DNA from: a virus
DNA: 64,000 bases
Virus record (IMG/VR): IMGVR_UViG_3300008954_003554
Location: 1-64,000 of that record
Reading direction: 5' to 3' (one strand)
Shown here: positions 35,378-49,852 of the stretch, piece after piece
Layout: each line of letters begins with the position of its first letter
How positions within the stretch are numbered: position 1 is the first letter of the stretch
Translations under genes and position numbers: made by a program
Notes under the pieces: generated by a model
What the model was told of the DNA's origin: nothing
The model's input: the letters and a program-made list of their open reading frames with translations, nothing else
Database searches by the model: none

Positions 35378-35419
35378 AAGAAGGTAAGCTAAAACAAACC
35401 CAAATCCATCGAGGAAACA

Positions 35420-36166: not shown

Positions 36167-36223
36167 CCGCCGAACCTGCCGGCCGGGTGTGATACCTCTA
36201 CCTCATGGGTTGCCCGGCCGGCA
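36140..36223 (+). promoter_or_regulatory. Competing hairpins at the end of the RadA-like gene
   Basis: A 10-bp stem GAGGTATCAC/GTGATACCTC (36140-36149 with 36189-36198) encloses a hairpin TTCGG...CCGAA (36154-36174). A perfect 11-bp stem TGCCGGCCGGG/CCCGGCCGGCA (36177-36187 with 36213-36223) cannot form in a simple nested way with the first. There is no T run. It could be an attenuator, pseudoknot or mRNA-stability element. Confidence 0.65.
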
Positions 36224-36253
36224 CCCCCTCCCACACGTCTAAGGAGAGCCAAA

Positions 36254-36460
36254 ATGACAGTCGGTGACATGGTACGAATCAAAGGCAACTTTCAGGTGCA
36301 GCATGGCGCTGCCCTCGGTGAAGTCTGGCCCGAGGTTTACGGCCAGATCGGTGTGATCGTTGGCTTGGCCAAGCGACTCTATATTCCCGCAGCCAAAGTC
36401 ATGGTACTGGGTGAGGTCGCTGAGTTCGACCTCGATGAACTGGAGAAAGTAAATGACTGA
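36254..36460 (+). CDS. SH3/KOW-like protein, MKVGDLV family
   Basis: 68 residues, TAAGGAGAGCCAAA before the ATG. MTVGDMVRIKGNFQ, GQIGVIVGL, AKVMVLGEVAEF. Its end overlaps the next ATG by 8 nt, not by the usual 14-nt module. Confidence 0.75.
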   Translation: MTVGDMVRIKGNFQVQHGAALGEVWPEVYGQIGVIVGLAKRLYIPAAKVMVLGEVAEFDLDELEKVND

Positions 36461-36611
36461 CAAAGAGATTATTCGTGAAGCATACTTCGCACTGGCCGGC
36501 TATCGAAGCCCGACACTAACAAGACAGCAGCGGGAGAATGAACTACAGAGATGTTATACACTTCTTGCGGACGCTCTGTATAGACGGGATGAGGAAGATG
36601 AAAGTAGGTGA
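36453..36611 (+). CDS. 52-residue helical protein ending in the ESR overlap
   Basis: ATG 36453 to TGA 36611. MTDKEIIREAYFALAGYR...YRRDEEDESR is helical and unlike the MKVGDLV family. Yet it ends in the same ESR-stop because its last 14 nt (ATGAAAGTAGGTGA, 36598-36611) are the start of the next MKVGDLV gene. It shows that unrelated genes can be linked by the same joint. Confidence 0.68.
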   Translation: MTDKEIIREAYFALAGYRSPTLTRQQRENELQRCYTLLADALYRRDEEDESR

Positions 36612-36765
36612 CCTGGTAAAGTATAAAGGTTCAGTCGGAATTGTTCTTGGGCCTTGCACAAAGCGCTGGGCTAAGCCCGCTGATGTTTGGGTACTTTGGC
36701 CTCATAAGCACAGGCCCATGATCGAGAGCAGCGACTTTATGGAGTTAGTAAATGCAAGTCGGTGA
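36598..36765 (+). CDS. MKVGDLV-family gene
   Basis: 55 residues from ATG 36598. MKVGDLVKYKGSVGIVLG, DVWVLWPHKHRP, MELVNASR. 14-nt overlaps at both ends. An in-frame ATG at 36538 is ignored as it lies inside the previous gene. Confidence 0.8.
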   Translation: MKVGDLVKYKGSVGIVLGPCTKRWAKPADVWVLWPHKHRPMIESSDFMELVNASR

Positions 36766-36943
36766 CCTGGTATCATTGAAGATGAAGAAGACACAACCCC
36801 CTCAGGTACCTTGCCATGGCATCGTACTCAATCTATGGCGGAATCATAAGGGACGGCTTGTTGAAGTAGAGGTGATGTGGTCAGAAGGTAATGTTAGAAG
36901 GTTCCGTGCTGATCTCTTCGAGGTGATCAATGGAAGTAGGTGA
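36752..36943 (+). CDS. MKVGDLV-family gene
   Basis: 63 residues. MQVGDLVSLKMKKTQ, CHGIVLNLW, VEVMWSEGNVRRF, EVINGSR. 14-nt overlaps both sides (ATGCAAGTCGGTGA and ATGGAAGTAGGTGA). Confidence 0.8.
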   Translation: MQVGDLVSLKMKKTQPPQVPCHGIVLNLWRNHKGRLVEVEVMWSEGNVRRFRADLFEVINGSR

Positions 36944-37112
36944 TATTGTTCATGATCATGCTGTTGGTCGCAATGGCATCATCCTATCTAAGACGGTGTG
37001 TGCGTGGAAAGTTAACTGGTTCTATGTCTTTTACGGCGACGGCTCCATCGAGCAGGCACGTGCCAATGAGCTAAGCATACTTTCTTGTAAAGCGCTCAGA
37101 AATGATGTATAA
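36930..37112 (+). CDS. MKVGDLV-family gene, last of this group
   Basis: 60 residues. MEVGDIVHDHAVGRNGIILS, WFYVFYGDGSIEQA, then a tail (SCKALRNDV) without ESR. Its 3' end lies over the promoter at 37086-37113. Confidence 0.76.
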   Translation: MEVGDIVHDHAVGRNGIILSKTVCAWKVNWFYVFYGDGSIEQARANELSILSCKALRNDV

Positions 37113-37113
37113 T
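37086..37113 (+). promoter_or_regulatory. Promoter TGTAAA-N16-TATAAT
   Basis: TGTAAA 37086-37091, TATAAT 37108-37113, then ATCACCAAGGAGG. It lies inside the end of the upstream gene. Confidence 0.88.
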
Positions 37114-37136
37114 ATAATCACCAAGGAGGAATATTC

Positions 37137-37544
37137 ATGTCAGTTCAGTTAGCAAATATTCAACACGACGGCGGCACTCACGATGTGTCTGTGGAAACAG
37201 AGGGTGATCAGTGTGTCATCAAGTTTGGCGGCAGCTTCACGCTCCGCGTGGATGAGGCAAATCTAAATAAGCTGCGTGAGATGATTCACATCGCGGCTCG
37301 TGACTTGACCATTGAGCGACGTGATACTGCCGGTGCTCGGGAGTGGTCGGAGTCGGGGTTAGACGACGTGTTTGACTTTGATGAGAGCGATGAGATCTCG
37401 GGTGAAGACCTGAAGGCGGCTGATGAGATCTGGCAATCGAGCGTTGAAGCTGACATGATCCAGCGTGGGATCGACGCGCGCGAGATGATGAAGGGAACAG
37501 CTAGCGCTGGAGACTGGAACCCGAACGATCCATCCAACTGGTAG
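37137..37544 (+). CDS. Hypothetical 135-residue acidic protein
   Basis: Strong AAGGAGGAATATTC. The N-terminal half is strand-rich (DVSVETEGDQCVIKFGGSFTLRVDE) then a helix (NLNKLREMIHIAARDL). The C-terminal half is acidic and disordered-like (DDVFDFDESDEISGED). No family recognised. Confidence 0.72.
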   Translation: MSVQLANIQHDGGTHDVSVETEGDQCVIKFGGSFTLRVDEANLNKLREMIHIAARDLTIERRDTAGAREWSESGLDDVFDFDESDEISGEDLKAADEIWQSSVEADMIQRGIDAREMMKGTASAGDWNPNDPSNW

Positions 37545-37550
37545 GTAGAT

Positions 37551-37760
37551 ATGTTACAAATTCCATGGACAGTCGTGTTTGCGAAAGAGAGACAATCATT
37601 TACGCACCCCTCAGAGTACGTTGCGAAGGAGCTCTACGGGTCGATAGAGCAGAAAGCTATGCTCGAACAGGCCAATCAGTATGCGACACATGTCGGCTAT
37701 GCGTCGGTTGTCTGCATCATCAAGGGGAGCCATGCTGGAGGATTCTATGCAAATCGGTGA
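37551..37760 (+). CDS. Hypothetical 69-residue protein ending in the 14-nt joint
   Basis: MLQIPWTVVFAKERQSFTHP...YASVVCIIKGSHAGGFYANR. It is not an MKVGDLV protein, but its last 14 nt (ATGCAAATCGGTGA) are the start of one, like the 36453 gene. Confidence 0.65.
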   Translation: MLQIPWTVVFAKERQSFTHPSEYVAKELYGSIEQKAMLEQANQYATHVGYASVVCIIKGSHAGGFYANR

Positions 37761-37920
37761 CATTGTTAGGTATAAGAACGAGAACACACCCTTTGGGACG
37801 ATTGTTTGGATCATGCCCAAGGAAGAGAGAAAGGATAATGTTCTTGTGATGTGGAGCAAGAATAGGAAGTGGTTTGTGTGGCCTGAGAACATCGAGGTAG
37901 TAAATGAACGTGCAGCTTAG
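37747..37920 (+). CDS. MKVGDLV-family gene
   Basis: 57 residues from ATG 37747. MQIGDIVRYKNENTPFGTIVWIM, VLVMWSKNRKWF, IEVVNERAA. Overlaps the next ATG by 17 nt. Confidence 0.77.
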   Translation: MQIGDIVRYKNENTPFGTIVWIMPKEERKDNVLVMWSKNRKWFVWPENIEVVNERAA

Positions 37921-38098
37921 TAAAGAAGAGTATGATACAATGATTGAGGCACTTGCACTCTATTCTAGCACCCATCACAAGGAGTTCCTAGATAACCAGG
38001 TCTACGCCGGAGTAGAGAGCAAAGGGTGTAGGGATCGATGGCTGAATTCACATAAGCTCATTGAAAAGCTTGAAATGATTGAAGGTCAGAATACGTAA
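37904..38098 (+). CDS. Hypothetical 64-residue helical protein
   Basis: MNVQLSKEEYDTMIEALALYSSTHHKEFLDNQ, polar and helical. It begins within the end of the upstream MKVGDLV gene. Not recognised. Confidence 0.65.
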   Translation: MNVQLSKEEYDTMIEALALYSSTHHKEFLDNQVYAGVESKGCRDRWLNSHKLIEKLEMIEGQNT

Positions 38099-38103
38099 CA
38101 ACG

Positions 38104-38131
38104 TGCAGCTCTTGCGCTTTGTTGGTATAAT
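38104..38131 (+). promoter_or_regulatory. Promoter TGCAGC-N16-TATAAT
   Basis: TGCAGC 38104-38109, TATAAT 38126-38131 after TGG, then TTCAAGGAGG. Confidence 0.8.
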
Positions 38132-38150
38132 AGATTCAAGGAGGCAAACC

Positions 38151-38933
38151 ATGCCACGCAAATCTCACGATCTTCGTCTTAGTCAGGCTGTTGAGCTTCT
38201 TCAGGCCTATGAGGCAGCTGACCATCAAGGGACCGAGGTCTCTTTCGTCAGGGACATGATTGCCCGCATGGGGCGTCGGAAGCAGATGTCTCCCAAGCAG
38301 AGGGGCTGGCTTGATTCACTCATCGAGCAGGGGGTTCCAGCTCCCAAGGGGGACTCAAAGCTTATTGATGAGATCGAGCGCCTGCTCAAAGTTCCCGGCG
38401 CTGATCACGTTCATCAGCCGCTGCGAGACTTTCTCTTCCGAGAAAAGAAGGGTTGGACACTTTCTCCCAAGCAGATCGCCTTTCGAGACAGGCTGATAGA
38501 TGAAGCCAGAGTCATCGAGCGCGACGGTCCTTGGTTCCCATCGAGCGAGCAAGCAGAAAAGCTCAGAAGCTGTGCAGCTATGTCTCCGAGCCGCAGCGGG
38601 ATGTACTGGTCCACGCACCCAGGCGAGGAGCGAGCGCTTAAGAAGGTTTTGTCGTGGCTAGAGGGCTGTGATAAGTTTGTAGACTCGTGGTCTGTAGACA
38701 AGGTGCTTCACAGCTTCAGGAGCGGATTGAAAGAGATGGAGGCACCTTACGCTTCCGCCGGTGATATCGTCTGGGGGAATCACGGAAAGTATTACGGAAA
38801 GATGGCTCTTGTTACCGGTGGTCCTGCCATCGCTGAGAACGGCCGTATCGGATACCCGGTCTTGATCGACGGGGTATCAACAACCTTCTCGAAAGGGATG
38901 ATCACCAAGCGCCGACCGAAGGCAAGGGAGTAA
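38151..38933 (+). CDS. Hypothetical 260-residue protein with repeated SPKQ helices and SH3-like end
   Basis: ATG 38151 with AAGGAGGCAAACC. Two similar segments, MSPKQRGWLDSLIEQG and LSPKQIAFRDRLIDEA, suggest an internal repeat. The last ~60 residues (AGDIVWGNHGKYYGKMALVTGG...YPVLIDGVSTTF) look like a KOW/SH3 barrel related to the small proteins around it. Function unknown. Confidence 0.74.
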   Translation: MPRKSHDLRLSQAVELLQAYEAADHQGTEVSFVRDMIARMGRRKQMSPKQRGWLDSLIEQGVPAPKGDSKLIDEIERLLKVPGADHVHQPLRDFLFREKKGWTLSPKQIAFRDRLIDEARVIERDGPWFPSSEQAEKLRSCAAMSPSRSGMYWSTHPGEERALKKVLSWLEGCDKFVDSWSVDKVLHSFRSGLKEMEAPYASAGDIVWGNHGKYYGKMALVTGGPAIAENGRIGYPVLIDGVSTTFSKGMITKRRPKARE

Positions 38934-38935
38934 CC

Positions 38936-39118
38936 ATGGGTGATACGATTAAGTCAGGGAAGTGCAGACTGTGCACGGGTCAAGGTCTCGGAGTTCAGAT
39001 GGTCGACACACGTGGTCAACCAGCTGTGTTCCACTGCAAGCAGTGCGAGCCCGTCTACTTCCACCGTCTATCGATGCTTGACAAGGAGAGGTTTCTCAAA
39101 GGTGCAGGTGTAGAGTGA
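38936..39118 (+). CDS. Small zinc-binding protein
   Basis: 60 residues. CRLCTGQG and HCKQCEP form a CxxC...CxxC pair set about 22 residues apart. GTAACC and GGGAG sequences precede the ATG. The next gene's GTG overlaps its stop (GTGA). Confidence 0.7.
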   Translation: MGDTIKSGKCRLCTGQGLGVQMVDTRGQPAVFHCKQCEPVYFHRLSMLDKERFLKGAGVE

Positions 39119-39234
39119 CATTTGATCTAGGCTTCTGGCTAAGTGGCGGGTTCTTCTTCTCTCTCGGCATGTTCATTGGGATTTGGGCTGAGCATCGAGC
39201 CCGAGAATATTATGAACGGAAGGGAAAGGAGTAG
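39115..39234 (+). CDS. 39-residue membrane peptide
   Basis: GTG 39115 to TAG 39234. One membrane helix (FWLSGGFFFSLGMFIGIWA) then a charged tail (EHRAREYYERKGKE). 4-nt overlap with the upstream gene supports it. Confidence 0.62.
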   Translation: MTFDLGFWLSGGFFFSLGMFIGIWAEHRAREYYERKGKE

Positions 39235-39254
39235 TCCCCGGACACCCTCTCTCA

Positions 39255-39282
39255 TGTAAACTTGGGTAGTCTGTGGTATAAT
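39255..39282 (+). promoter_or_regulatory. Promoter TGTAAA-N16-TATAAT
   Basis: TGTAAA 39255-39260, TATAAT 39277-39282 after TGG, then ATCACCAAGGAGG. Confidence 0.9.
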
Positions 39283-39303
39283 ATTATCACCAAGGAGGTC
39301 CAG

Positions 39304-39588
39304 ATGGATTTGAATGTTGATGTGATCGATAACGAGACCGGTGAGATTTACCGGGAGGGCGTGCTGCTTGCGAGTGCGCATATCTTTATTGCCAAAGAGA
39401 ATGGTAATATTGTCCGGGACGAAGTGAACACCGTTCACCTTGATGAGATTGATGGCGGCGGCGAGATAAAAGTCCGTGATATCTATGTCGATTTTCCGGA
39501 AGAGAGAAGGAAGAGAGATTTGTCAGCTGAGGCAATAATCAAGGCCAGGGAGTTCTGGCAGTATGAGAATGGCGGGGGTCAGGTATGA
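39304..39588 (+). CDS. Hypothetical 94-residue beta-type protein
   Basis: ATG 39304 with AAGGAGGTCCAG. LNVDVIDNETGEIYREGVLL and VNTVHLDEIDGGGEIKV strands, then a helix (SAEAIIKAREFWQYE). ATGA overlap with the next gene. Not recognised. Confidence 0.7.
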   Translation: MDLNVDVIDNETGEIYREGVLLASAHIFIAKENGNIVRDEVNTVHLDEIDGGGEIKVRDIYVDFPEERRKRDLSAEAIIKAREFWQYENGGGQV

Positions 39589-39833
39589 ATATCTATACAT
39601 TTGTAATCGGTAGCGCTGACGACTTCGAGGGAATCGAAGATTTGACGGACTATGTGGACCAGGAGGGTTGCGACGGCGGTTTGAACTACAGCTGCCATGA
39701 GTTCGCAGTACATCCGGAGTGTGACGAGGAGACAGTGACCCTGATCGGTCGTGGTATCGCGTTCAGTAACGACTGGTGCATGGACCACACTTTCAGTTTC
39801 CTCGTCCGCGGGGAGATTTCCCCTGTAGTCTGA
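39585..39833 (+). CDS. Hypothetical 82-residue protein
   Basis: MNIYTFVIGSADDFEGIEDLTDYVDQEGCDGG...CHEFAVHPECDEETVTLIGRGIAF. Four Cys, strand-rich and acidic. The stop TGA lies between the -35 and -10 of the promoter at 39824. Confidence 0.68.
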   Translation: MNIYTFVIGSADDFEGIEDLTDYVDQEGCDGGLNYSCHEFAVHPECDEETVTLIGRGIAFSNDWCMDHTFSFLVRGEISPVV

Positions 39834-39851
39834 AGTGTGTGGTGGTATAAT
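39824..39851 (+). promoter_or_regulatory. Promoter TGTAGT-N16-TATAAT
   Basis: TGTAGT 39824-39829 lies in the end of the upstream gene; TATAAT 39846-39851 after TGG; then CACCAAGCAAGGAG. Confidence 0.86.
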
Positions 39852-39875
39852 ATAATCACCAAGCAAGGAGATGCA

Positions 39876-40106
39876 ATGCCTATTCAAGAACTAGACGAAA
39901 TGGAAAAGCTACTCGATGAAACTGCAGACTGCTTCGAGGACACTATGAAGCAGCTGTTCGATGAGGATCCCGGGATGTTCGAGGGTCGGTCTACCCAGGC
40001 AAGCTGGTCAGCTCAGGTAAGTTTTGCTGGCGATGAGCTTCGCAAGGAACTCAACAAGGTTATCGAGCAGATAGAGATTCGACTACACGATGGACAGTTC
40101 GCATAA
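39876..40106 (+). CDS. Hypothetical 76-residue acidic helical protein
   Basis: ATG 39876 with AAGGAGATGCA. MEKLLDETADCFEDTMKQLFDEDPG and a C-terminal helix (LRKELNKVIEQIEIRLHDG). 1-nt overlap (TAATG) with the next gene. Confidence 0.68.
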   Translation: MPIQELDEMEKLLDETADCFEDTMKQLFDEDPGMFEGRSTQASWSAQVSFAGDELRKELNKVIEQIEIRLHDGQFA

Positions 40107-40186
40107 TGTGGAGGGTCGAAGCTATATTCTGGATTCTATCCGGACTTGCGGTTGGATGGCTCGTGCTGGGTGTTCCAGCACACTAG
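40106..40186 (+). CDS. 26-residue membrane peptide
   Basis: ATG 40106 to TAG 40186: MWRVEAIFWILSGLAVGWLVLGVPAH, essentially one membrane helix. It starts on the previous stop and ends 12 nt before the next ATG. Confidence 0.5.
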   Translation: MWRVEAIFWILSGLAVGWLVLGVPAH

Positions 40187-40198
40187 GGGATGATTGTT

Positions 40199-40369
40199 AT
40201 GTTAAGTCAAATGTGGTTATGGACAGCGACAGTGAGGCTCCCAAACGGAGATGCTCCTGCTACAGTGATCGCTCCCGATCAGTGGACAGCGCGACGAATG
40301 ATTGAAGCGCAGTTCGGGAAGGGATCGATTCTTGGTGACTACGTCGAGTGCGTAAAGGCTGTCGGATGA
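40199..40369 (+). CDS. Hypothetical 56-residue protein
   Basis: ATG 40199 to TGA 40369. MLSQMWLWTATVRLPNGDAPATVIAPDQWTARRMIEAQFG is a short strand plus helix layout. ATGATG overlap with the next gene. Confidence 0.62.
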   Translation: MLSQMWLWTATVRLPNGDAPATVIAPDQWTARRMIEAQFGKGSILGDYVECVKAVG

Positions 40370-40554
40370 TGGAGCGAGGGGACCAGGTCCTTGTAACTCA
40401 GGGAACTTATCGCGAGTGCACTGGGCAGGTTGTATTTCTTGATCATGTTGACAGCCTTGCCACCATTGCCCTCGACCAGCACAGCATGCTGCTGAAGATA
40501 AGTATTGCTAGTCTTGAGCTAGTCACGTGTAAATCCAGGGCTGGTAAGGTATAA
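40366..40554 (+). CDS. KOW-domain-like small protein
   Basis: 62 residues. RGDQVLVTQGTYRECTGQVVFLDHVDSLATIAL is close to a classical KOW motif (G-x-V-x-x-x-x-G-x-x). Its stop TAA lies in the next promoter's -10 box. Confidence 0.7.
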   Translation: MMERGDQVLVTQGTYRECTGQVVFLDHVDSLATIALDQHSMLLKISIASLELVTCKSRAGKV

Positions 40555-40555
40555 T
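40528..40555 (+). promoter_or_regulatory. Promoter TGTAAA-N16-TATAAT
   Basis: TGTAAA 40528-40533 and TATAAT 40550-40555 both lie within the last codons and stop of the upstream gene; CAGGAGG follows. Confidence 0.86.
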
Positions 40556-40573
40556 ATATCCAGGAGGCGACAC

Positions 40574-40735
40574 ATGCCCAAGAAGAAGCAGAAGAAGCAA
40601 TTCACCAGCAAGGCCCAGGAGCGTCGTGCTCGTAACTGGCTCGCTGTCCACGCGTTTCAGCGGAGCGGTGCTGGTCGGCATACTGATAAGAAGAAGAAGG
40701 CCAGCAAGCAGGCGTGCCGAGGGAGCCATCAGTGA
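40574..40735 (+). CDS. 53-residue highly basic protein
   Basis: ATG 40574 (CAGGAGGCGACAC) to TGA 40735. PKKKQKKQFTSKAQERRARNWLAVHAFQRSG...KKKKASKQ, probably nucleic-acid binding. 1-nt overlap (TGATG) with the next gene. Confidence 0.66.
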   Translation: MPKKKQKKQFTSKAQERRARNWLAVHAFQRSGAGRHTDKKKKASKQACRGSHQ

Positions 40736-40917
40736 TGGAGTCAGCTGTTGCTATCGTGTTCTTCATACTCTGGACAGTCTTGATTATCCTAGTCTTGAAC
40801 CCAGAGTTATTCATCCGGCTCAGGTACCGTATCGACATCGATGATGTGGATGATCAGTCTGACAAGCCTGATCTAGCGCCGGAGAAAGATGAACCAAAGC
40901 TAGATCGTTACGTGTAA
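40735..40917 (+). CDS. 60-residue single-helix membrane protein
   Basis: ATG 40735. One membrane helix (SAVAIVFFILWTVLIILVL) then a charged cytosolic tail (DIDDVDDQSDKPDLAPEKDE). Its stop TAA forms part of the next TGTAAA. Confidence 0.66.
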   Translation: MESAVAIVFFILWTVLIILVLNPELFIRLRYRIDIDDVDDQSDKPDLAPEKDEPKLDRYV

Positions 40918-40940
40918 AGCGCCCATAAGTTTTGTATAAT
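40913..40940 (+). promoter_or_regulatory. Promoter TGTAAA-N16-TATAAT
   Basis: TGTAAA 40913-40918 contains the upstream stop; TATAAT 40935-40940; CCCAGGAGG follows. Confidence 0.88.
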
Positions 40941-40959
40941 GTACCCAGGAGGTAATACC

Positions 40960-41190
40960 ATGACCGAGCTTGAAGAAGCACAGATGAGAGCAGCCGAGTT
41001 CACGAACTCATTGGCATGCTTGTATCACATTCAACAACTGCTTGCTGTGGGAGAGGAGGCTAAGGGAAGTATCCGAGACAGGACACTGCCTGATCCGGTT
41101 CGCAAGCAGGCAATTCAGGATCTTCGCCACGTCAATCTACAATTCAATGTGGTCGCTGCTGCGCGCGCTGTGTTGGGAATCTCAGCTTAG
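40960..41190 (+). CDS. Hypothetical 76-residue helical protein
   Basis: ATG 40960. TELEEAQMRAAEFTNSLACLYHIQQLLAVGEEAKG...HVNLQFNVVAAARAVLG, all helical. Not recognised. Confidence 0.7.
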   Translation: MTELEEAQMRAAEFTNSLACLYHIQQLLAVGEEAKGSIRDRTLPDPVRKQAIQDLRHVNLQFNVVAAARAVLGISA

Positions 41191-41200
41191 GAGAAGAATC

Positions 41201-41437
41201 ATGACAACTGCAGAGATCATTGCTAACTACAAGGCCATGCAGGAGATGAAGCCTCATAGCTCCATCCTCCGCGAAGTGCGCATCCAGTATGCCGACATGG
41301 CAGAGGGTGGCGACGGGGGGACCTTGGGTTACGCCCCTGACGGTTTCAATCGCCCACCAACCTGTCGTGAGTACAACTACCCTGGCAAACCGGACTCTTT
41401 CTTCCAGGAAGTCAGACAGGCTCTGGGATGGCAATGA
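41201..41437 (+). CDS. Hypothetical 78-residue protein
   Basis: ATG 41201 with TTAGGAGAAGAATC; a longer in-frame start at 41042 would overlap the previous gene, so I reject it. A helical start and a Gly/Pro-rich middle (GGDGGTLGYAPDGFNRPP). Overlaps the next gene by 10 nt. Confidence 0.66.
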   Translation: MTTAEIIANYKAMQEMKPHSSILREVRIQYADMAEGGDGGTLGYAPDGFNRPPTCREYNYPGKPDSFFQEVRQALGWQ

Positions 41438-41724
41438 GCGAATCCAATATTGTCTACCTTGATGACCACAGACAAATTAATCCCATCCTGGGTCGAGGCG
41501 ACCTGGTCCGAATTGTCTCTCCGGAGATAGATGGGATTGTTGTGGGGGTGACAGCTGTCATGGGACCCGATTCAGACGCACCAGGTCAGGCAGCGTCTGT
41601 TGATGTTGCTGTTCCTTACGACGAAGAATGGGTGATTCATGAGGACGTCCCAGTCCAGGAATTGCATCGAGTTATCAACAAGGAGTATCAGGTGTCGAGG
41701 ATGATAGACACAGAGGAGGGATAG
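41428..41724 (+). CDS. SH3/KOW-like protein, 98 residues
   Basis: ATG 41428. LGRGDLVRIVSPEIDGIVVGVTAV, SVDVAVPYDEEWVIHEDVPV. The core follows the MKVGDLV strand order, with a longer N-terminus and tail. Confidence 0.7.
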   Translation: MAMSESNIVYLDDHRQINPILGRGDLVRIVSPEIDGIVVGVTAVMGPDSDAPGQAASVDVAVPYDEEWVIHEDVPVQELHRVINKEYQVSRMIDTEEG

Positions 41725-41756
41725 AAAAAAGAATTGTGACCTACGTGTCGACTTCG

Positions 41757-41784
41757 TGTAGCACTGAGGGTGTGATGGTATAAT
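41757..41784 (+). promoter_or_regulatory. Promoter TGTAGC-N16-TATAAT
   Basis: TGTAGC 41757-41762, TATAAT 41779-41784 after TGG. The leader contains CTCAACCCCAAAACCCCCGAGG before the gene at 41841. Confidence 0.88.
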
Positions 41785-41840
41785 ATTATCATGGAGGGGA
41801 TGGATCCCTCCTCTCAACCCCAAAACCCCCGAGGTTAATC

Positions 41841-42200
41841 ATGGCTATCACCGCTAACTCCCGCTACCTGTTCGAAATCCTCAGCTCCGACGAGCTGGCT
41901 GCTCACCCGAAGTCCGGTCTCAAGACCGTCGTGGTCTCCGGGACCTGCACCAACGCTGACGGCGTCAGCTTTGACTTTATCGCTACCAACAACTTGGACC
42001 AGCGGTACCCCGACCGGTTCAAGGTGAACTGGAACGGAAAGGCAGCTCGGATGCCTAAGGTCGTCGGCTTCGGTATCGCGGAAGACGTCCGCACCGATCG
42101 CAAGGTGACTGAGGACCTCTACTTCACCCGCGGCGCTCGCATCGCAATCGCTCGGAAGTGCAAGTCGCTCTTCCCGCTTTGGAAGCAGGCGTCAAGCTAG
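41841..42200 (+). CDS. Hypothetical 119-residue protein
   Basis: ATG 41841 with CGAGGTTAATC, a ribosome site shared with the MoxR and RadA-like leaders. MAITANSRYLFEILSSDELAAHPKSGLKTVVVSGTCT, then strands and a basic C-terminus (RGARIAIARKCKSLFPLW). GC-rich codons suggest high expression. Function unknown. Confidence 0.74.
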   Translation: MAITANSRYLFEILSSDELAAHPKSGLKTVVVSGTCTNADGVSFDFIATNNLDQRYPDRFKVNWNGKAARMPKVVGFGIAEDVRTDRKVTEDLYFTRGARIAIARKCKSLFPLWKQASS

Positions 42201-42281
42201 GACACTGGCTGGGACTTCCGGTTGTTCGGCACCGTAACGGTTCTGATGACTTGACCGGCACTCCCAGCCTCACCTGGCTGT

Positions 42282-42315
42282 CCCGATGTACAATCGGGGC
42301 GGTCCTCTTTATAAT
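42282..42315 (+). promoter_or_regulatory. Hairpin plus promoter for the tRNA
   Basis: CCCGAT/ATCGGG (42282-42287 with 42293-42298) surrounds TGTACA (42287-42292). TATAAT at 42310-42315 follows after 17 nt (one more than the usual 16). It lies 8 nt before the tRNA, so the tRNA is probably transcribed from here. Confidence 0.72.
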
Positions 42316-42323
42316 GTTCACAT

Positions 42324-42400
42324 GCGCCCTTAGCTCAGTTGGATAGAGCATTGGCCTTCTAAGCCAAGGGTCGTAGGTTCGAATCCTACAGGGCGTACCA
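42324..42400 (+). tRNA. tRNA-Arg (anticodon TCT), CCA encoded
   Basis: 77 nt. Acceptor stem GCGCCCT/AGGGCGT (with one G-U), D-arm TAGCTCAGTTGGATAGAGCA, anticodon loop CTTCTAA inside a TTGGC/GCCAA stem, T-loop GGTTCGAATCC, and ACCA encoded at the 3' end. It reads AGA codons, which dominate the tagged genes (CGTAGACAATTAAGA contexts), a typical reason for phages to carry a tRNA. Confidence 0.96.
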
Positions 42401-42411
42401 TTTAGTTCTCG

Positions 42412-42439
42412 TGTAAAACAAGCAGAGTTGAGGTATAAT
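42412..42439 (+). promoter_or_regulatory. Promoter TGTAAA-N16-TATAAT for the large RNA
   Basis: TGTAAA 42412-42417, TATAAT 42434-42439, 12 nt past the tRNA. No start codon with a ribosome site follows for 770 nt. Confidence 0.85.
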
Positions 42440-42445
42440 AAAGAG

Positions 42446-43110
42446 GTAAGGAACAAGGAGCACTGTTCGCACCGGTTGCACGCCCTAGTGAGTAAGGATC
42501 TTCGTAAGGGGACCGCTCCAGGTGGTATCAAAGATGCAATGTCGTCTGGAGTCGAAAGACCTAAGCTCCGCTTCCCTTACTGATCTTTAACATTCTAATC
42601 CCCCAGGTCCGAAAGGAGGAGCTCAAAGAGGCACCGGACGGTCCAGCCAGTTATTGGTGTTCTGGGGGATTTATTTGAGGCCTTGGATTTAGCGGTCCGA
42701 GGAGCCGGTGGGAGTCGGCAGTCGTGGAACGAAGAGCTCACGGTGAGTGACATATTGGTAGTCACAAGAGGTCCGGGGTGCTGAGAGGTGTGTGCACCAA
42801 CCGCACATCGCGCAACAACTAAACGGACTCCCACCCCCTCTACCCTTTATGTGGGGGACACAGACCAGAGTGGTTGCCGATACTAGTTGTGGCAACTCGT
42901 GGTTGCGTAAGCGTGGTCAGGATTTCTGACTTTACAGGCTGTGTCTAGATAGAGAAGTTGGGAACTCTATCACCATCTCCGCGGCTGGCGGTAAAATGGG
43001 AGCGAAGTCAGACACGTCCATCCAGTCCTACCCGGCACCCGCCTGGGGAAACTGACAGCGGGTATATTTTAATAGAGGAGATTTGGGAAGAGCGAGGGTC
43101 TCTTCCAAGG
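42446..43110 (+). ncRNA. Large structured non-coding RNA candidate (GOLLD/ROOL-like in setting)
   Basis: About 660 nt with its own promoter, no convincing gene, and many perfect helices: GTAAGG/CCTTAC (42492/42575), CTCCAG/CTGGAG (42516/42546), AATCCCCCAG/CTGGGGGATT (42597/42662), GTCCG/CGGAC (42607/42635), GGTGGGAGTC/GACTCCCACC (42707/42826), GTGAC/GTCAC (42747/42761), GACACAG/CTGTGTC (42857/42939), GTTGCC/GGCAAC (42873/42891), GTCAG/CTGAC (42916/42926), ATAGAG/CTCTAT (42949/42965), TACCCG/CGGGTA (43029/43059), GGAAGAG/CTCTTCC (43086/43100). Giant ornate RNAs (GOLLD, ROOL) are known near tRNAs in phages. The exact family and ends are uncertain. A frame open from 42958 to the next gene is, in my view, not translated before 43210. 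Confidence 0.72.
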
Positions 43111-43209
43111 TTAACAAAAGGCGGGACGCTGCTGAAAGTGATGATAACAATCCCAGCTCGGGGGAACATTCCGGCCTTCACTAACCCTACATTTAAGGAG
43201 ACTCAGAGG

Positions 43210-43401
43210 ATGAGGTCAGGTGACATTGTTAGGAATCGAAACTCAGAGAGCGGAGAGATGGGTGTCTTCATGGGCATGACAGTGTTCAAGAACCAGACGA
43301 ACAACGAGCTCTATGAGTGTGCCGAGGTTTACTGGCCGGAGAGAAGGAAGGTGGGGACGATTCAGACTAGCCTAGTGGAGGTGATCAGTGCAGGTCGGTG
43401 A
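43210..43401 (+). CDS. MKVGDLV-family gene
   Basis: 63 residues from ATG 43210 (TAAGGAGACTCAGAGG). MRSGDIVRNRNSESGEMGVFMGM, AEVYWPERRK, VEVISAGR. Ends in the 14-nt joint GTGCAGGTCGGTGA. First gene after the structured RNA. Confidence 0.78.
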   Translation: MRSGDIVRNRNSESGEMGVFMGMTVFKNQTNNELYECAEVYWPERRKVGTIQTSLVEVISAGR

Positions 43402-43564
43402 TCTGGTAGGTCACATCAGCGGAGACGGCCCCACCGGCATTGTTCTGGCCACATGGGCGGATGTTCAACCCGGTATTGGCATCGAGGAAACATGGTGTGA
43501 GATCCTCTGGGGCTGCGGTGAGATCTGGGAATATGCCGAGAAAGATCTCGAGAGGGTTCAGTGA
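43388..43564 (+). CDS. MKVGDLV-family gene
   Basis: 58 residues from GTG 43388 to TGA 43564. MQVGDLVGHISGDGPTGIVLATW, CEILWGCGEIWEY, LERVQ. It ends without the ESR joint, closing a two-gene chain. Confidence 0.76.
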   Translation: MQVGDLVGHISGDGPTGIVLATWADVQPGIGIEETWCEILWGCGEIWEYAEKDLERVQ

Positions 43565-43572
43565 TTCGTGCA

Positions 43573-43600
43573 TGTAACAGCAAGACAGCTGTGGTATAAT
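43573..43600 (+). promoter_or_regulatory. Promoter TGTAAC-N16-TATAAT
   Basis: TGTAAC 43573-43578, TATAAT 43595-43600 after TGG, then CACCAAGGAG. Confidence 0.9.
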
Positions 43601-43620
43601 AGAAGCACCAAGGAGATATT

Positions 43621-43845
43621 ATGACAGAGGAAGAGAAACGAGCGCTGGTTGAGAGGTACGAGTGTGATTCATCGATTGCGTATGACGTCACAGACGATGA
43701 GCTGGATGTTTTGCTCCTAACGCTGGGAGAGATGGAGCCTATCGTCGACGCGATCAATGTTCGCTGCGGTGCAAGCATCGAACAGCGAGCAGCGGATATC
43801 GGGTGTGATCCGGAAGACTTTGCTTATGAGATCCAGGGATTTTAG
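43621..43845 (+). CDS. Hypothetical 74-residue acidic helical protein
   Basis: TEEEKRALVERYECDSSIAYDVTDDELDVLLLTLGEMEP, helical and acidic; single-gene promoter cassette. Not recognised. Confidence 0.7.
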   Translation: MTEEEKRALVERYECDSSIAYDVTDDELDVLLLTLGEMEPIVDAINVRCGASIEQRAADIGCDPEDFAYEIQGF

Positions 43846-43847
43846 CA

Positions 43848-43875
43848 TGTAATCATATCCTAGCTGTGGTATAAT
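43848..43875 (+). promoter_or_regulatory. Promoter TGTAAT-N16-TATAAT
   Basis: TGTAAT 43848-43853, TATAAT 43870-43875 after TGG, then ACGGGAGG. Confidence 0.88.
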
Positions 43876-43897
43876 GAGAACACAACGGGAGGTTGTC

Positions 43898-43999
43898 ATG
43901 AGAACTGGAACTTTGAAAGATAGGTATAACAACTACGTGAGCGCGATGATTAGCATGGGTCTTCCCTACGTTGACTTCGACACCTGGCTCAATCGATAG
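43898..43999 (+). CDS. 33-residue peptide gene with own promoter
   Basis: ATG 43898 (CGGGAGGTTGTC) to TAG 43999: MRTGTLKDRYNNYVSAMISMGLPYVDFDTWLNR. A complete promoter and ribosome site in front and a promoter behind argue that this tiny gene is real. Confidence 0.66.
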   Translation: MRTGTLKDRYNNYVSAMISMGLPYVDFDTWLNR

Positions 44000-44006
44000 G
44001 ACTGCG

Positions 44007-44034
44007 TGTAACCCACGAGCTGCCGTGGTATAAT
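44007..44034 (+). promoter_or_regulatory. Promoter TGTAAC-N16-TATAAT
   Basis: TGTAAC 44007-44012, TATAAT 44029-44034 after TGG, then CACCTAAGGAGG. Confidence 0.9.
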
Positions 44035-44055
44035 GGTATCACCTAAGGAGGTACA

Positions 44056-44235
44056 ATGAAGTACACAATCAAGAAGTTCAATGGCGACGATCAATACAGC
44101 TGGGCGGTCTTTCGCGCGGCAGACGTGAAGGGGATGCGGAGTCCGATCTTTTACGGTGATGCTGAGCCGATCATCAATGGTCTGGACCGCAGTGAGGCAC
44201 GGTACCACAGAGATCGACTGGAGAAGATCGCATGA
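44056..44235 (+). CDS. Hypothetical 59-residue protein
   Basis: ATG 44056 to TGA 44235: MKYTIKKFNGDDQYSWAVFRAADVKG then a helix (SEARYHRDRLEKIA). Overlaps the zinc-ribbon gene by 4 nt. Confidence 0.68.
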   Translation: MKYTIKKFNGDDQYSWAVFRAADVKGMRSPIFYGDAEPIINGLDRSEARYHRDRLEKIA

Positions 44236-44336
44236 AGTATTACTGTAGATTCTGCGGCGTCAAGTCGCACAACCCACACTGGGTGCAGGGTATGTGCCCT
44301 CGATGCGGAGCAAGAACACCCCCGAAGGAATGGTGA
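44232..44336 (+). CDS. 34-residue zinc ribbon
   Basis: ATG 44232 to TGA 44336. Two CxxC pairs, YYCRFCG and MCPRCGAR, about 15 residues apart. A clear relative lies at 45277 (MKYYCPTCG...RCPACGS). 1-nt overlap (TGATG) with the next gene. Confidence 0.7.
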   Translation: MKYYCRFCGVKSHNPHWVQGMCPRCGARTPPKEW

Positions 44337-44416
44337 TGATAATCTATGCACTGTTTATAGGTGGTGGGCTCTGGTTTACTATCGCTGCATTCATGAACAT
44401 CGTGCAGCACTCGTAG
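44336..44416 (+). CDS. 26-residue membrane peptide
   Basis: ATG 44336 to TAG 44416: MIIYALFIGGGLWFTIAAFMNIVQHS, one membrane helix. Starts on the zinc-ribbon stop; its last codons hold the next promoter's TGCAGC. Confidence 0.52.
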   Translation: MIIYALFIGGGLWFTIAAFMNIVQHS

Positions 44417-44430
44417 CCCTGTGGTATAAT
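44403..44430 (+). promoter_or_regulatory. Promoter TGCAGC-N16-TATAAT
   Basis: TGCAGC 44403-44408 and TATAAT 44425-44430 after TGG, then CACCAACCAAGGAGG. Confidence 0.86.
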
Positions 44431-44455
44431 AGAATCACCAACCAAGGAGGCCCAC

Positions 44456-44626
44456 ATGGCAACAACAGCAAATGCCAACCGAGCCGCCCACAAGAAGTGC
44501 GCGGGAAGCGGATACCCTGTAGCCTTGTTCCTTCTACGGCTGGGTCACACCAAAAACCCTTGCGGCCACTGCGGCCGGAAAGTAAGGATTCTCAAGAACG
44601 GCCGGATGGCGTCTCATCGGGCGTAG
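44456..44626 (+). CDS. 56-residue zinc-binding basic protein
   Basis: ATG 44456 to TAG 44626. ANRAAHKKCAGSGYPVALFLLRLGHTKNPCGHCGRKVRILKNG; one lone Cys plus a CGHC pair. Strong AAGGAGG. Possibly a nucleic-acid-binding knuckle. Confidence 0.66.
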   Translation: MATTANANRAAHKKCAGSGYPVALFLLRLGHTKNPCGHCGRKVRILKNGRMASHRA

Positions 44627-44660
44627 CTACCCAAACGAAAGACATAAGGGAGAAACCAAA

Positions 44661-44780
44661 ATGACCAAGACCCAGACCAGCCAGAAGCCCTACGTCAGTC
44701 AAACCGGCAGCAAGTACCATGTGCTCAACAGCCGGGGCAAAGTTGCGGCGACGTTCACCAGCATCTCACTTTCGGCGTGA
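44661..44780 (+). CDS. 39-residue protein
   Basis: ATG 44661 (AGGGAGAAACCAAA) to TGA 44780. TKTQTSQKPYVSQTGSKYHVLNSRGKVAATF, polar with a short strand pair. Not recognised. Confidence 0.58.
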   Translation: MTKTQTSQKPYVSQTGSKYHVLNSRGKVAATFTSISLSA

Positions 44781-44783
44781 ATA

Positions 44784-44999
44784 ATGGCGACTAGAACTTC
44801 AAAGCTCAAGGCAATCATCCCGGGAAACTGGGGTTACCAGAAGGTTGAGATATACTTTGGCCAGGTGCGGGTGACTAGCTGTCAGCAGTGGGTGATGGCC
44901 GGTGAACTGATGCAGCACATAGAAGGTGGATCGGTGTGGGAGTTTAGGTATCGTGAGGGAGATGTGCTGCGCGGATATCCTGTAAAGCATCACCGGTGA
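44784..44999 (+). CDS. Hypothetical 71-residue protein
   Basis: MATRTSKLKAIIPGNWGYQKVEIYFGQVRVTSCQQWVMAGELMQHI, a compact alpha/beta layout. Its end overlaps the promoter at 44981. Confidence 0.65.
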   Translation: MATRTSKLKAIIPGNWGYQKVEIYFGQVRVTSCQQWVMAGELMQHIEGGSVWEFRYREGDVLRGYPVKHHR

Positions 45000-45008
45000 T
45001 GGTATAAT
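44981..45008 (+). promoter_or_regulatory. Promoter TGTAAA-N16-TATAAT
   Basis: TGTAAA 44981-44986 lies within the upstream gene (different frame from its stop); TATAAT 45003-45008 after TGG; then CACCAACCAAGGAGG. Confidence 0.88.
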
Positions 45009-45034
45009 ACATACACCAACCAAGGAGGCCCACA

Positions 45035-45280
45035 GTGGCTATCAGAACTTTCAATTGTCGCTTTAACTCACTGACCACACATACAAAAAAGACGTTCCAC
45101 GTCCATGTGAAGTGGTGGGCATTTGACGATGATCGGCTCAATGCCCGGGGACCGGCGAGGCTGAATGAGGCCAACGTTGAGGTCCGGGCAGGAGATGCCG
45201 CGAAAGCCAGGGCACTGGTTGTCCGTGAGTGGAACGGTGTATCATCGTTCATCGGCCAGGCCGAAGAGGTGGCAGTATGA
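45035..45280 (+). CDS. Hypothetical 81-residue protein
   Basis: GTG 45035 (AAGGAGGCCCACA). FNCRFNSLTTHTKKTFHVHVKWWAFDDDRLN and ARALVVREWNGVSSFIG; strand-rich. 4-nt overlap with the second zinc ribbon. Confidence 0.68.
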   Translation: MAIRTFNCRFNSLTTHTKKTFHVHVKWWAFDDDRLNARGPARLNEANVEVRAGDAAKARALVVREWNGVSSFIGQAEEVAV

Positions 45281-45402
45281 AGTACTACTGCCCAACTTGC
45301 GGATATGCAACAATTCACAGACTGTGGCATCGGTGCCCAGCTTGTGGTTCTAGTCATCAACCGAAGGAGGTGGCAAGTGAAGCTATTCCTGTGGAAGCTT
45401 AG
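45277..45402 (+). CDS. 41-residue zinc ribbon, relative of 44232
   Basis: ATG 45277 to TAG 45402. YYCPTCGYATIHRLWHRCPACGSSHQPKE aligns with the 44232 protein, including the closing PKE. It extends past that paralogue and overlaps the next gene by 26 nt. Confidence 0.68.
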   Translation: MKYYCPTCGYATIHRLWHRCPACGSSHQPKEVASEAIPVEA

Positions 45403-45682
45403 TCAAGACGTCAACAATGATTACGACACGTACAGCGATGCTGTTGTGGTGTCGAGCAACCCAGTCGCAGCTAAGAGGATCCATCCGAGCGTCGATAGCC
45501 AGACAGGTGAGATGATGTTCCGGTGGGTCGAGGGAGAAGGTTGGCGCTGGACCCATGACGGAGAGCGCTATAGCAATGGCTGCTGGGCTGACCCGAAGGA
45601 CATTCAGGTCACATGTGTCGGTGAGGCAGCTGACTGGTTAGGTGAGGGTGCAGTGGTTTGTCGGTCCTTTCATGCTGGGTGA
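45377..45682 (+). CDS. Hypothetical 101-residue protein
   Basis: GTG 45377 (GAAGGAGGTGGCAA). MKLFLWKLSQDVNNDYDTYSDAVVVSSNP, MMFRWVEGEGWRWTHD, DIQVTCVGEAADWL, a pattern often seen in unnamed phage proteins. The frame is open upstream to 45305 but that part is the zinc ribbon in another frame. Confidence 0.7.
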   Translation: MKLFLWKLSQDVNNDYDTYSDAVVVSSNPVAAKRIHPSVDSQTGEMMFRWVEGEGWRWTHDGERYSNGCWADPKDIQVTCVGEAADWLGEGAVVCRSFHAG

Positions 45683-45684
45683 CG

Positions 45685-45712
45685 TGCAATTCTCACATCC
45701 CCGTGGTATAAT
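45685..45712 (+). promoter_or_regulatory. Promoter TGCAAT-N16-TATAAT
   Basis: TGCAAT 45685-45690, TATAAT 45707-45712 after TGG, then ATCAAGGAG. Confidence 0.85.
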
Positions 45713-47485: not shown

Positions 47486-47971
47486 ATGAGAGTTACTCGC
47501 AAGCAGTTAAGAAAAATAATCCGGGAAGAATCCTTCAGGGCACTTAGGGAGCAAACAGCACCTGAGCCCCCAGAGCCAGGAGAGGAAGATGAAGAAGATG
47601 AAGAGAGAGACTATGGAGACAGCCGAGCCGGACGACCAGACCCGAAAGCTGTCCCCTGGAGGAAAATTACTGAAGAGATGGCTGGACAGGGCGGTAAGCT
47701 CGTTGCCATGGACAAGGGTTCCGGTCTTGGACAGGTTTACTTTTTTGGTGTTGGAGATCACCCCCCGAAAGGGTGGCCAGTCAAAATGCTCATGCGAGTA
47801 AAGAATGAAAAAGGACAAAGTGCCAAGGAGCTTGGAATAGAGATACGAAGGGTCGGAAGTGCTGTAAGTGGAAATAAGAATGTGAAGCTCGGTCGAGCAA
47901 GCACAGACTTTGAGATGGTTTCAGATGCTGAGCTTATCTTTGTTGCTTACAATGCAAATGCAGACTTCTAA
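47486..47971 (+). CDS. Tagged protein with acidic linker
   Basis: 161 residues from ATG 47486 (CAGGAGACAAAGGG). Tag MRVTRKQLRKIIREESFRALRE, then QTAPEPPEPGEEDEEDEERD as linker. The cargo is a beta-type domain (KLVAMDKGSGLGQVYFFGVG; IEIRRVGSAVSGNKNVKLG). Not recognised. Confidence 0.75.
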   Translation: MRVTRKQLRKIIREESFRALREQTAPEPPEPGEEDEEDEERDYGDSRAGRPDPKAVPWRKITEEMAGQGGKLVAMDKGSGLGQVYFFGVGDHPPKGWPVKMLMRVKNEKGQSAKELGIEIRRVGSAVSGNKNVKLGRASTDFEMVSDAELIFVAYNANADF

Positions 47972-47979
47972 GGTTAAAA

Positions 47980-48528
47980 ATGAAAATTACACGTAGACAG
48001 CTAAGAATGCTTATTGAAAAAGTTCTAAGAGAGCAGACCGCCTCTGTCTCACCTTCACAGGCCCAAATCGAAAAGAACCTTGAGAAGTTGGCGAAGGGCC
48101 CTCCCGTGCTCACCCATCTGGGGACGGATCCCGGAAAAGAGAGCGTTTTCGACAAAGTCTCAGATGATGAATTTCCCAAGCAGATGGCCGGGGTATTGGC
48201 ACTTGAAATGATAAAGTCTACCAGAAAGACAAAGAGAGCTGCACGGAAAGCAGGTGTTGATAGGGTGGCTGATTTCTATGATGGAATAGAGCTACTAAGG
48301 ACCGATGATTCTCGAGGGCAAGGGGTAACAGAGCTTGTGTACACTGTCGACTTAGGGGACCAGACTCTCAAGGACGCATGGGTAGATAGTTACAATAAGT
48401 TCAATTCAAGTGCCCTGGATAGAATAATGCGTAATCATGACAAGACAGGTCAATATTCTGTCGGAAGCTTTGGGAACGCTGATGGGACTGCTATCCAGAT
48501 CGGAATCATTGACAGCCAGACAAAGTAA
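47980..48528 (+). CDS. Tagged protein of unknown function
   Basis: 182 residues. Tag MKITRRQLRMLIEKVLRE, then QTASVSPSQ. The cargo has a helix (GVLALEMIKSTRKTKRAARKAG) and strands (TELVYTVDLGDQTLKDAWVD; TAIQIGIID). 8 nt from the upstream gene; probably the same operon. Confidence 0.75.
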   Translation: MKITRRQLRMLIEKVLREQTASVSPSQAQIEKNLEKLAKGPPVLTHLGTDPGKESVFDKVSDDEFPKQMAGVLALEMIKSTRKTKRAARKAGVDRVADFYDGIELLRTDDSRGQGVTELVYTVDLGDQTLKDAWVDSYNKFNSSALDRIMRNHDKTGQYSVGSFGNADGTAIQIGIIDSQTK

Positions 48529-48597
48529 GTCAATTTAACTCATAAGTTTTAATACCATTAGAATACATATAATAGTCATTGATCAGGAGACAGAGAG

Positions 48598-48867
48598 ATG
48601 AAAATCACAAGAAGCCGGCTAAGAAAGATTATACTTGAAACAGTAGTTAATGAAGGTGATTCAGGTGCCGGAAGAGGTAAGATTCTGAATGCCATAGAAG
48701 ATGTATATGGAGTCGATCAGCAAGAGGCCCAGCAGATATGGGCTACTGTACCGGAAGATAGGGCTGCGCAAGCAGTCCAGCTTGCATCGTCAGACTGGGT
48801 CACAGAAGAACTAGTTGAGTCCATCATCAGAGCTCTTCAGGAGCGCGGTCATCTTCGTAGAAGCTAG
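48598..48867 (+). CDS. Tagged small helical protein
   Basis: 89 residues, CAGGAGACAGAGAG before the ATG. Tag MKITRSRLRKIILETVVNE, VNE before GDSGAG. The cargo looks like one small helical domain (ILNAIEDVYGVDQQEAQQIWATV). Confidence 0.74.
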   Translation: MKITRSRLRKIILETVVNEGDSGAGRGKILNAIEDVYGVDQQEAQQIWATVPEDRAAQAVQLASSDWVTEELVESIIRALQERGHLRRS

Positions 48868-48902
48868 GACCAGGTCAATTTAAAAATTTCTTTAAGAAAT
48901 TT

Positions 48903-48930
48903 TGTAAACTTCCCTCAGATATAGTAGAAT
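48903..48930 (+). promoter_or_regulatory. Promoter TGTAAA-N16-TAGAAT
   Basis: TGTAAA 48903-48908, TAGAAT 48925-48930. An early-type promoter within the tagged region, for the single gene at 48990. Confidence 0.78.
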
Positions 48931-48989
48931 TTAATATTGGATCGGTCATCGGTCCAATTTTTTATGCTTATATACAAGGAGAAAAAAGC

Positions 48990-49229
48990 ATGTCATTTAC
49001 CAAGTCAAAGTCCACGAAGCGCTTCAGCTTCGATATTAGCCGCAACCTCACTGCAAAGAAGGCCGGTAGCAACACTGTTACCATTGCAACCAACCCGATC
49101 GCAGAGGGCCGATACAGTTATGGAGGTACCCAACTTACCATGACAGTGCGTGAGGCACAGGCACTTCGTAGCTTTCTCAATGAGAATCTTACCCCGGTAA
49201 GCTACGACAGCGGCGAAGGAATTGGCTAG
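48990..49229 (+). CDS. Hypothetical 79-residue protein, monocistronic
   Basis: CAAGGAGAAAAAAGC before the ATG. SFTKSKSTKRFSFDISRNLTAKKAGSNTVTIATNP then a helix (VREAQALRSFLNENL). Promoter in front and terminator behind make it a stand-alone unit. No tag. Confidence 0.75.
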   Translation: MSFTKSKSTKRFSFDISRNLTAKKAGSNTVTIATNPIAEGRYSYGGTQLTMTVREAQALRSFLNENLTPVSYDSGEGIG

Positions 49230-49250
49230 CATCAAGACTTAGTCATCTAA

Positions 49251-49280
49251 AAGGCCTGGCTAGACACCAGGCCTTTTTTA
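49251..49280 (+). terminator. Rho-independent terminator
   Basis: AAGGCCTGG/CCAGGCCTT stem (49251-49259 with 49267-49275), 7-nt loop, then TTTTATTTTT. Confidence 0.93.
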
Positions 49281-49340
49281 TTTTTAAAATCAGCATCTAA
49301 GTGATAGTTATAAATGTGACTAACGCAAATAGGAGAAAAA

Positions 49341-49832
49341 ATGCGTAAACTTAAGATTAATGAGCTAAGACAGCTAATCAAAGAGGAGGCCGACACCGAC
49401 GAAGAGGGTGAGGAGGGCAGCGAGGCTGTTGATGAGCAACATCAACCCAGAGCTGGCAAGTTTAAGACACCAGCTGAGTACATCGCCAGCGGTCACGAGG
49501 ACACCTTTCTTGAAGTCACCGGACGCCTCATGGGATACAAGAAGCTCTGGGAAGGTACATGGGGCACCAAGGGAGTCGAAGAAATGGCTAAGCAGCAGGC
49601 GAGATTCTCCGGTGGCGAACTTAGCTACCATGAGCTGGATGTAGGTGGCCTGAGATTCTGGCTCACCATAGGAACGGTCCTATCAGATTACCACGACGGC
49701 AGCGTCGGCGCTAACGTCATCGAGGAGCTTGAGTCTGACGGGATCATCGACGGTAGTTTCAGGAGAGTGAGCAGCAACATGGGAATTAGCCTCGTAGCCC
49801 TAAACGGTTGGGCTAACAGGGAAGGGATCTAG
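49341..49832 (+). CDS. Tagged protein, paralogue of 51612
   Basis: 163 residues, AGGAGAAAAA before the ATG. Tag MRKLKINELRQLIKEEAD, then an acidic linker and DEQHQPRAGK. The domain from there on (AEYIASGHEDTFLEVTGRLMGYKKLW; LSDYHDGSVGANVIEELE...IDGSF) aligns with the 51612 protein along its full length. Function unknown. Confidence 0.76.
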   Translation: MRKLKINELRQLIKEEADTDEEGEEGSEAVDEQHQPRAGKFKTPAEYIASGHEDTFLEVTGRLMGYKKLWEGTWGTKGVEEMAKQQARFSGGELSYHELDVGGLRFWLTIGTVLSDYHDGSVGANVIEELESDGIIDGSFRRVSSNMGISLVALNGWANREGI

Positions 49833-49852
49833 GACCTTTAAGGCACCAATCA

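Follow-up and report, generated by a model that had tools for sequence, protein, structure and literature searches.

A covarying structured RNA, often beside tRNA genes, in large T4-type phages

The DNA studied here (the window) is a stretch of 64,000 nucleotides from the IMG/VR virus record IMGVR_UViG_3300008954_003554. Downstream of a tRNA-Arg gene (Table 1) lies a region, 42446-43110, that holds no credible gene and shows no sign of translation; an 83-nt block of it is 90% identical in a relative, yet there is an indel between the two. The next gene with an ATG start begins at about 43210. A preliminary description had read the whole region as a large ornate RNA with its own promoter, lying 12 nt after the promoter-proximal end of tRNA-Arg. 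Position 42446 is in fact about 45 nt past the 3′ end of the tRNA (42400), and the conserved RNA stops at about 42972, short of 43110. A promoter is plausible. The -10 core GGTATAAT is of the phage's own type, its count of 21 was reached in none of 100 shuffled sequences, and the transcript would start near 42446; a consensus promoter scan called no -35/-10 pair at 42432-42439. Such cores stand 5′ of many small plus-strand genes, mostly within 31790-45712, which suggests that short transcription units are numerous in that part of the window.

Table 1. Features of the RNA locus (window coordinates unless a record is named)
Feature	Position	Strand	Remarks
tRNA-Arg (anticodon TCT)	42324..42400	+	ARAGORN; Rfam tRNA 74 bits; upstream neighbour of the composite
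Promoter -10 core GGTATAAT (plausible)	42432..42439	+	phage-wide motif; 21 copies in the window vs 1.4 expected
Leader motif	42457..42569	+	outer stem GGAGC/GCTCC, CACTGYTCGC ... CGTCTGGA, 3-bp hairpin with tetraloop
Leader motif, all copies	L154:5673-5762; L169 near 1491-1555; L003:2273-2340; L134:9333-9386 (-); window 42457-42569		
BoxA-like site GATCTTTAACA	42582..42592	+	suggestive only; GCTCTTTGACAATTT at the corresponding place in L134
Module D, hairpin domain	42597..42671	+	closed by 10-bp helix AATCCCCCAG/CTGGGGGATT; fold z -2.0
Module B	42677..42841	+	hairpin CCTTGG/CCGAGG (42681-42702); long-range helix 42707-42716/42826-42835; variable interior
Module A, conserved RNA core	42851..42972	+	R1 match 107.5 bits, E 9e-25 (window copy in training set)
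P1 (7 bp)	42857-42863/42939-42945	+	closing helix of module A
P2	42872-42879/42890-42897	+	hairpin of module A
CGUGGUUGCGUAAGCGU block	42898-42914	+	junction of module A
P3	42916-42920/42926-42930	+	hairpin of module A
P4 hairpin	42948-42954/42965-42971	+	3′ hairpin of module A

Both 10-bp helices that the preliminary description had named are present (42597-42606/42662-42671 and 42707-42716/42826-42835, the latter inside a 15-nt arm pair), and as a pair they are the sole unusual helix feature, occurring in 0.7% of shuffles. Its count of at least twelve perfect helices amounts to chance level: the 12 perfect inverted repeats of 7 bp or more compare with 7.7 in shuffled sequences, 7% of which have 12 or more. 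The folding energy is ordinary as well, with a z-score of 0.20 against shuffles for the whole of 42446-43110 and -0.16 for 42446-42973. Judged on a single sequence, neither folding energy nor the count of perfect helices rises above chance; it is comparison between phages that provides strong evidence.

The first relative, L003, is a related viral contig located through a neighbouring protein. The RNA is not downstream of that protein in relatives; in L003 it lies elsewhere, where plain blastn revealed the 90%-identical 83-nt block. Alignment with this relative showed a conserved core, referred to as module A, and variable hairpins. Further copies were fetched from IMG/VR with degenerate patterns based on the core, and 16 distinct sequences went into a covariance model, R1. 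R1 finds exactly one copy of module A in each of 21 viral records, 16-293 kb long, and none in a 22nd, the fragment of L004. Near-identical duplicates among the 21 (G009/G016/G017/G018, G004/G019 and G012/G020) reduce these to about 15 distinct lineages, to which two members outside the R1 training set are added: L066, a phage contig binned in a bacterial MAG (94 bits), and L154, a diverged copy found via the leader motif (27.8 bits, E 5e-6), which lies about 100 nt 5′ of the genes for tRNA-Asn and tRNA-Glu. In the genome collection a specific pattern gave no match; a looser one gave 101, and R1 applied to the first 100 loci left one real member, L066. Weak R1 matches in L021, L128 and L018-L020/L022 (14-24 bits) were set aside, being partial or located in coding-like sequence. 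When the stretch and four other members were compared by BLAST with 50,697 phage records, the RNA had no match, one search returning flanking tRNAs only; a plasmid search gave no match to the RNA either.

A T4-type gp23 is encoded in 10 of the 22 records and a T4-type gp20 in eight. Where the record is large enough, the carriers are, on sequence, large T4-type myoviruses; because their portal proteins are 42-71% identical to one another, module A spans a wide phage group. The MAG label of L066 would make its host a member of the Flavobacteriales, which we do not accept; the contig carries the tagged proteins of the phage group. In the window, at least 20 open frames (14224-28548 and 47486-51612) begin with nearly the same N-terminal tag, of the MKITRRQLRQIIKEE type, also found in L003, L004 and L066. 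The tag resembles the T4-type capsid-targeting or propeptide tag, and the frames may encode internal head proteins.

Covariation shows that module A folds as a P1 stem closing a multi-helix junction, with P2 and P3 inside, followed by the 3′ hairpin P4. The order of elements is GUGGG - P1 - RCCAGAG - P2 - CGUGGUUGCGUAAGCGU - P3 - AGG - P1′ - P4. P1 is paired in all 16 distinct sequences and has compensatory changes in seven of its seven pairs, its variants including GACACAG/CTGTGTC, GCTGTAG/CTACAGT, GACATGG/CCATGTC and GACACGA/TCGTGTC. P4, with the loop AAGYUGGGA, has changes on both sides in six of seven pairs. Over the entire module 84% of cells are paired, against 32-48% when partners are slid by one to three columns, a control that preserves relatedness; the covariation score is 0.48 against 0.08-0.14 in the slid controls. 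Support in the column alignment is less perfect for P2 (78% of cells paired) and P3 (62%), partly because MAFFT misplaces the variable hairpins, P2 reaching about 99 nt in L066. When members are folded individually, the P2 stem forms in most, while L010, L132 and L135 deviate in P2 or P3. RNAalifold, run on the model alignment with a few weak matches included, recovers P1 and P4, with double changes in 11 of 12 pairs. The 17-nt core block CGUGGUUGCGUAAGCGU is invariant in the aligned set, an invariance that is partly ascertained since the fetching patterns contained parts of the block; L154 retains just CGUGGUU of it.

Upstream of module A the window carries a composite of about 526 nt in all, consisting of the promoter, a leader motif, a boxA-like site, hairpin D, module B and, as its 3′ domain, module A. 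The 235-kb phage L134 repeats the arrangement over a similar length without D (tRNA-Arg, promoter, leader, boxA, B, A), the same tRNA-Arg(tct) standing ahead of it at 9435-9511. Module D is present only in the window phage and one identical record. Module B has relatives in L009, L134 and L003 (diverged); its 10-bp helix is paired in all four lineages, with compensatory changes in three pairs. For modules A and B, the reality of a new structured RNA family is beyond reasonable doubt. The preliminary description correctly recognised a structured phage RNA next to a tRNA; in relatives, the paired positions are conserved and covary.

The leader motif measures about 60 nt, or more with inserts, and six copies occur in five phages, L154 having a nested double. 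Pairs were counted on the spliced halves, leaving out the variable insert, since MAFFT shifts the stem of the window copy; 95.8% of cells are paired and six of eight pairs have changed on both sides. Neither the window copy nor that of L134 has an Rfam match. Because the motif precedes an ORF in L003, L154 and L169, it is probably a regulatory element in its own right. The copies in the window, L134, L003 and L154 are promoter-proximal. The boxA of the E. coli rrn operons is TGCTCTTTAACA, and sites of the form TCTTTRA occur within 60 nt upstream of module A at 4 of 18 loci (0.35 expected) and within 400 nt at 7 of 18 (2.2 expected), both counts having been made after the motif was seen; the link between boxA and module A loci is suggestive. 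The RNA family hints that an rrn-like leader drives operons of structured RNAs in some of the carrier phages.

The flanks of module A differ between carriers. Genes for tRNA occur near the RNA in the window, L009, L134, L137, L010, L015 and L154. In L137 module A fills the gap between tRNA-Arg, which ends at 1178, and tRNA-Met, which starts at 1319, beginning 2 nt past the former; in L134 and L009 a tRNA-Lys gene follows within about 5 nt, and in L010 and L015 a tRNA lies within about 200 nt. The association is not universal, as G004, G005, G007, G011 and G014 have tRNA genes, none of them adjoining the RNA. Members without an immediate tRNA usually have a T-run after P4 (L010, L011, L015, L131, L135, L140, L144 and L066), and promoter-like TTGACA..TATAxT sequences precede the RNA in L011, L015 and L144; members that abut a tRNA have no T-run after P4. 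The window copy has neither a U-run after P4 nor a tRNA directly downstream. A tRNA-like 3′ CCA end was considered and dropped, CACCA following P4 in two lineages only. The gene directly 5′ of the RNA in L010 (about 3524-3808; the same in L008, L012 and L013) reads as a split tRNA with a group-I-intron-like insertion in the anticodon region, for which ARAGORN gives no call.

At gathering scores, the 4227 models of Rfam 15 match only tRNA in the window and eight relatives. Relaxing the threshold to E≤10 yields four chance-level matches in the stretch, the best sub-threshold one being ZMP-ZTP (17.9 bits, cut-off 39), and GOLLD, ROOL, OLE and HEARO are not among them. Used directly, the GOLLD model (RF02032) scores 5 bits at best (E 3.5-8.8), with no match at the RNA. 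The ROOL model (RF03087) has no match at E≤10 in the 22 records, but no positive control rang in that search, so the ROOL negative rests on the E≤10 search of the stretch and the gathering scans. Membership of GOLLD or ROOL, one branch of what had been proposed, thus finds no match in the Rfam scans or the direct models, and it is the other branch, a new class, that survives. GOLLD resembles the RNA described here in being phage-borne, non-coding and often adjacent to tRNA genes, and it has a conserved 3′ part and a variable 5′ part; ROOL, an RNA of phages and prophages whose function is unknown, is often found close to tRNA islands (PMC12286853). Proximity to tRNA genes in phages or prophages, typical of GOLLD, is seen at several of our loci, not at all. 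Many GOLLD members exceed 800 nt, whereas the module A unit is 115-195 nt and the composite about 526 nt; compared with ROOL, the module A core is much shorter and no shared structure was found. Module A RNA shares the GOLLD and ROOL setting, a phage and a tRNA neighbourhood, and is a member of neither. The module A core sequence occurs in no paper searched, and no description of such a phage RNA family was found, in a literature coverage that leaves out most subscription and bioRxiv-only work and may miss an unindexed description.

The reading that we favour, and hold to be reasonably probable, is that of an undescribed family of structured non-coding RNA, present in single copy in large T4-type myoviruses, discrete and acting in trans. 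That the role is in trans we consider likely in itself. Module A would then be a stable RNA of about 115-195 nt, its discreteness being read mainly from flanks that show two ways of ending the same RNA, by tRNA borders or by a promoter and P4 with a T-run. In tRNA arrays, the processing enzymes of the flanking tRNAs would also excise it; transcription of a stand-alone gene would begin at a promoter of its own and end at P4, which would act as a terminator hairpin with a U-run. A cis-regulator of a single gene is disfavoured because the downstream neighbour varies (tRNA-Lys, tRNA-Met and several unrelated ORFs).

A cis element of another kind, in which module A, or the leader with the boxA-like site, mediates put-, nut- or EAR-like antitermination through structured tRNA operons, seems unlikely to us. 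There is a resemblance to rrn-type boxA leaders and phage nut/put sites at some loci, where a promoter-proximal leader is followed by a boxA-like sequence (directly so in L134), boxA-like sites near module A exceed expectation, and the leader recurs upstream of ORFs; the site is nevertheless absent from 11 of 18 loci, so that it marks a minority of them, and the test was post hoc to the motif. Module A is also not placed where an antiterminator must sit, since it lies between tRNAs in L137 and before a terminator-like T-run in L011, L015, L135 and L140, with nothing consistent downstream. Antitermination would suit the leader better than module A. We regard as very doubtful the alternative that the composite is one molecule, a large ornate RNA like GOLLD or ROOL that may form a multimer or cage. 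Its setting beside a tRNA in a phage, its length of over 500 nt, the recurrence of its order in L134 and the conserved 3′ and variable 5′ parts, which also describe GOLLD (PMC12286853), are all in keeping with such a molecule. Against this, neither family shows homology to it, shuffled sequences fold as well as the whole stretch does, the conserved unit of about 115-195 nt stands alone in most phages, and module B occurs in only four lineages and module D in one.

The single copy, the junction fold and the restriction, so far, to one broad group of large phages might also fit an RNA component of the DNA-packaging motor resembling pRNA, or a decoy against host defence, which we think improbable. 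The pRNA of phi29 is likewise small, present in single copy and equipped with a helix junction; RNAs of this type belong to small podovirus-like phages, a different group, no relation emerged in the Rfam scans, and module A is not linked to the portal gene, from which (gp20) it is about 60 kb or more distant in the large records. Nothing specific indicates a defence system that a decoy would address. There remains chance, an untranslated gap with ordinary folding, which the folding z-scores and helix counts would by themselves allow but which we find scarcely credible given that the RNA is conserved across phages and its pairs have undergone extensive compensatory change. The comparative data refute chance for modules A and B; the refutation does not extend to module D and 42973-43110.

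If module A RNA is discrete and trans-acting, its conserved junction sequences RCCAGAG, CGUGGUUGCGUAAGCGU and AGG would be a putative binding site for a partner, though these bases could alternatively serve a role in cis. Because the gene travels with tRNA genes, our leading guess, a weak one, is a partner in translation or RNA metabolism, such as the ribosome or a host or phage RNA-binding protein. In the window, the 5′ domains (leader, boxA-like site, D and B) would probably aid transcription, folding or processing. Going further, we tentatively suggest that giant T4-type phages make this RNA alongside their tRNAs for a specific essential step, by a mechanism new for RNA, because the core is so conserved among phages with portals about 43% identical; tuning host ribosomes or an RNA enzyme would be examples of such a step. 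To our knowledge a function is known for few structured phage RNAs, and GOLLD and ROOL illustrate how remarkable such RNAs can be. The module A family is compact, supported by covariation and searchable with one covariance model. Its carriers are T4-type jumbo phages, encountered in this analysis in metagenomes alone, and it often lies within their tRNA operons. It gives metatranscriptomics, pull-downs and structural studies something concrete to aim at.

Two further gene pairs were observed in the window. Proteins of the DUF444 (YeaH-like) and SpoVR families are encoded side by side, in a phage, at 60633-63143, and at 32204-34621 an AAA ATPase adjoins a VWA/DUF2201 metallopeptidase-like protein, forming a MoxR-like pair.
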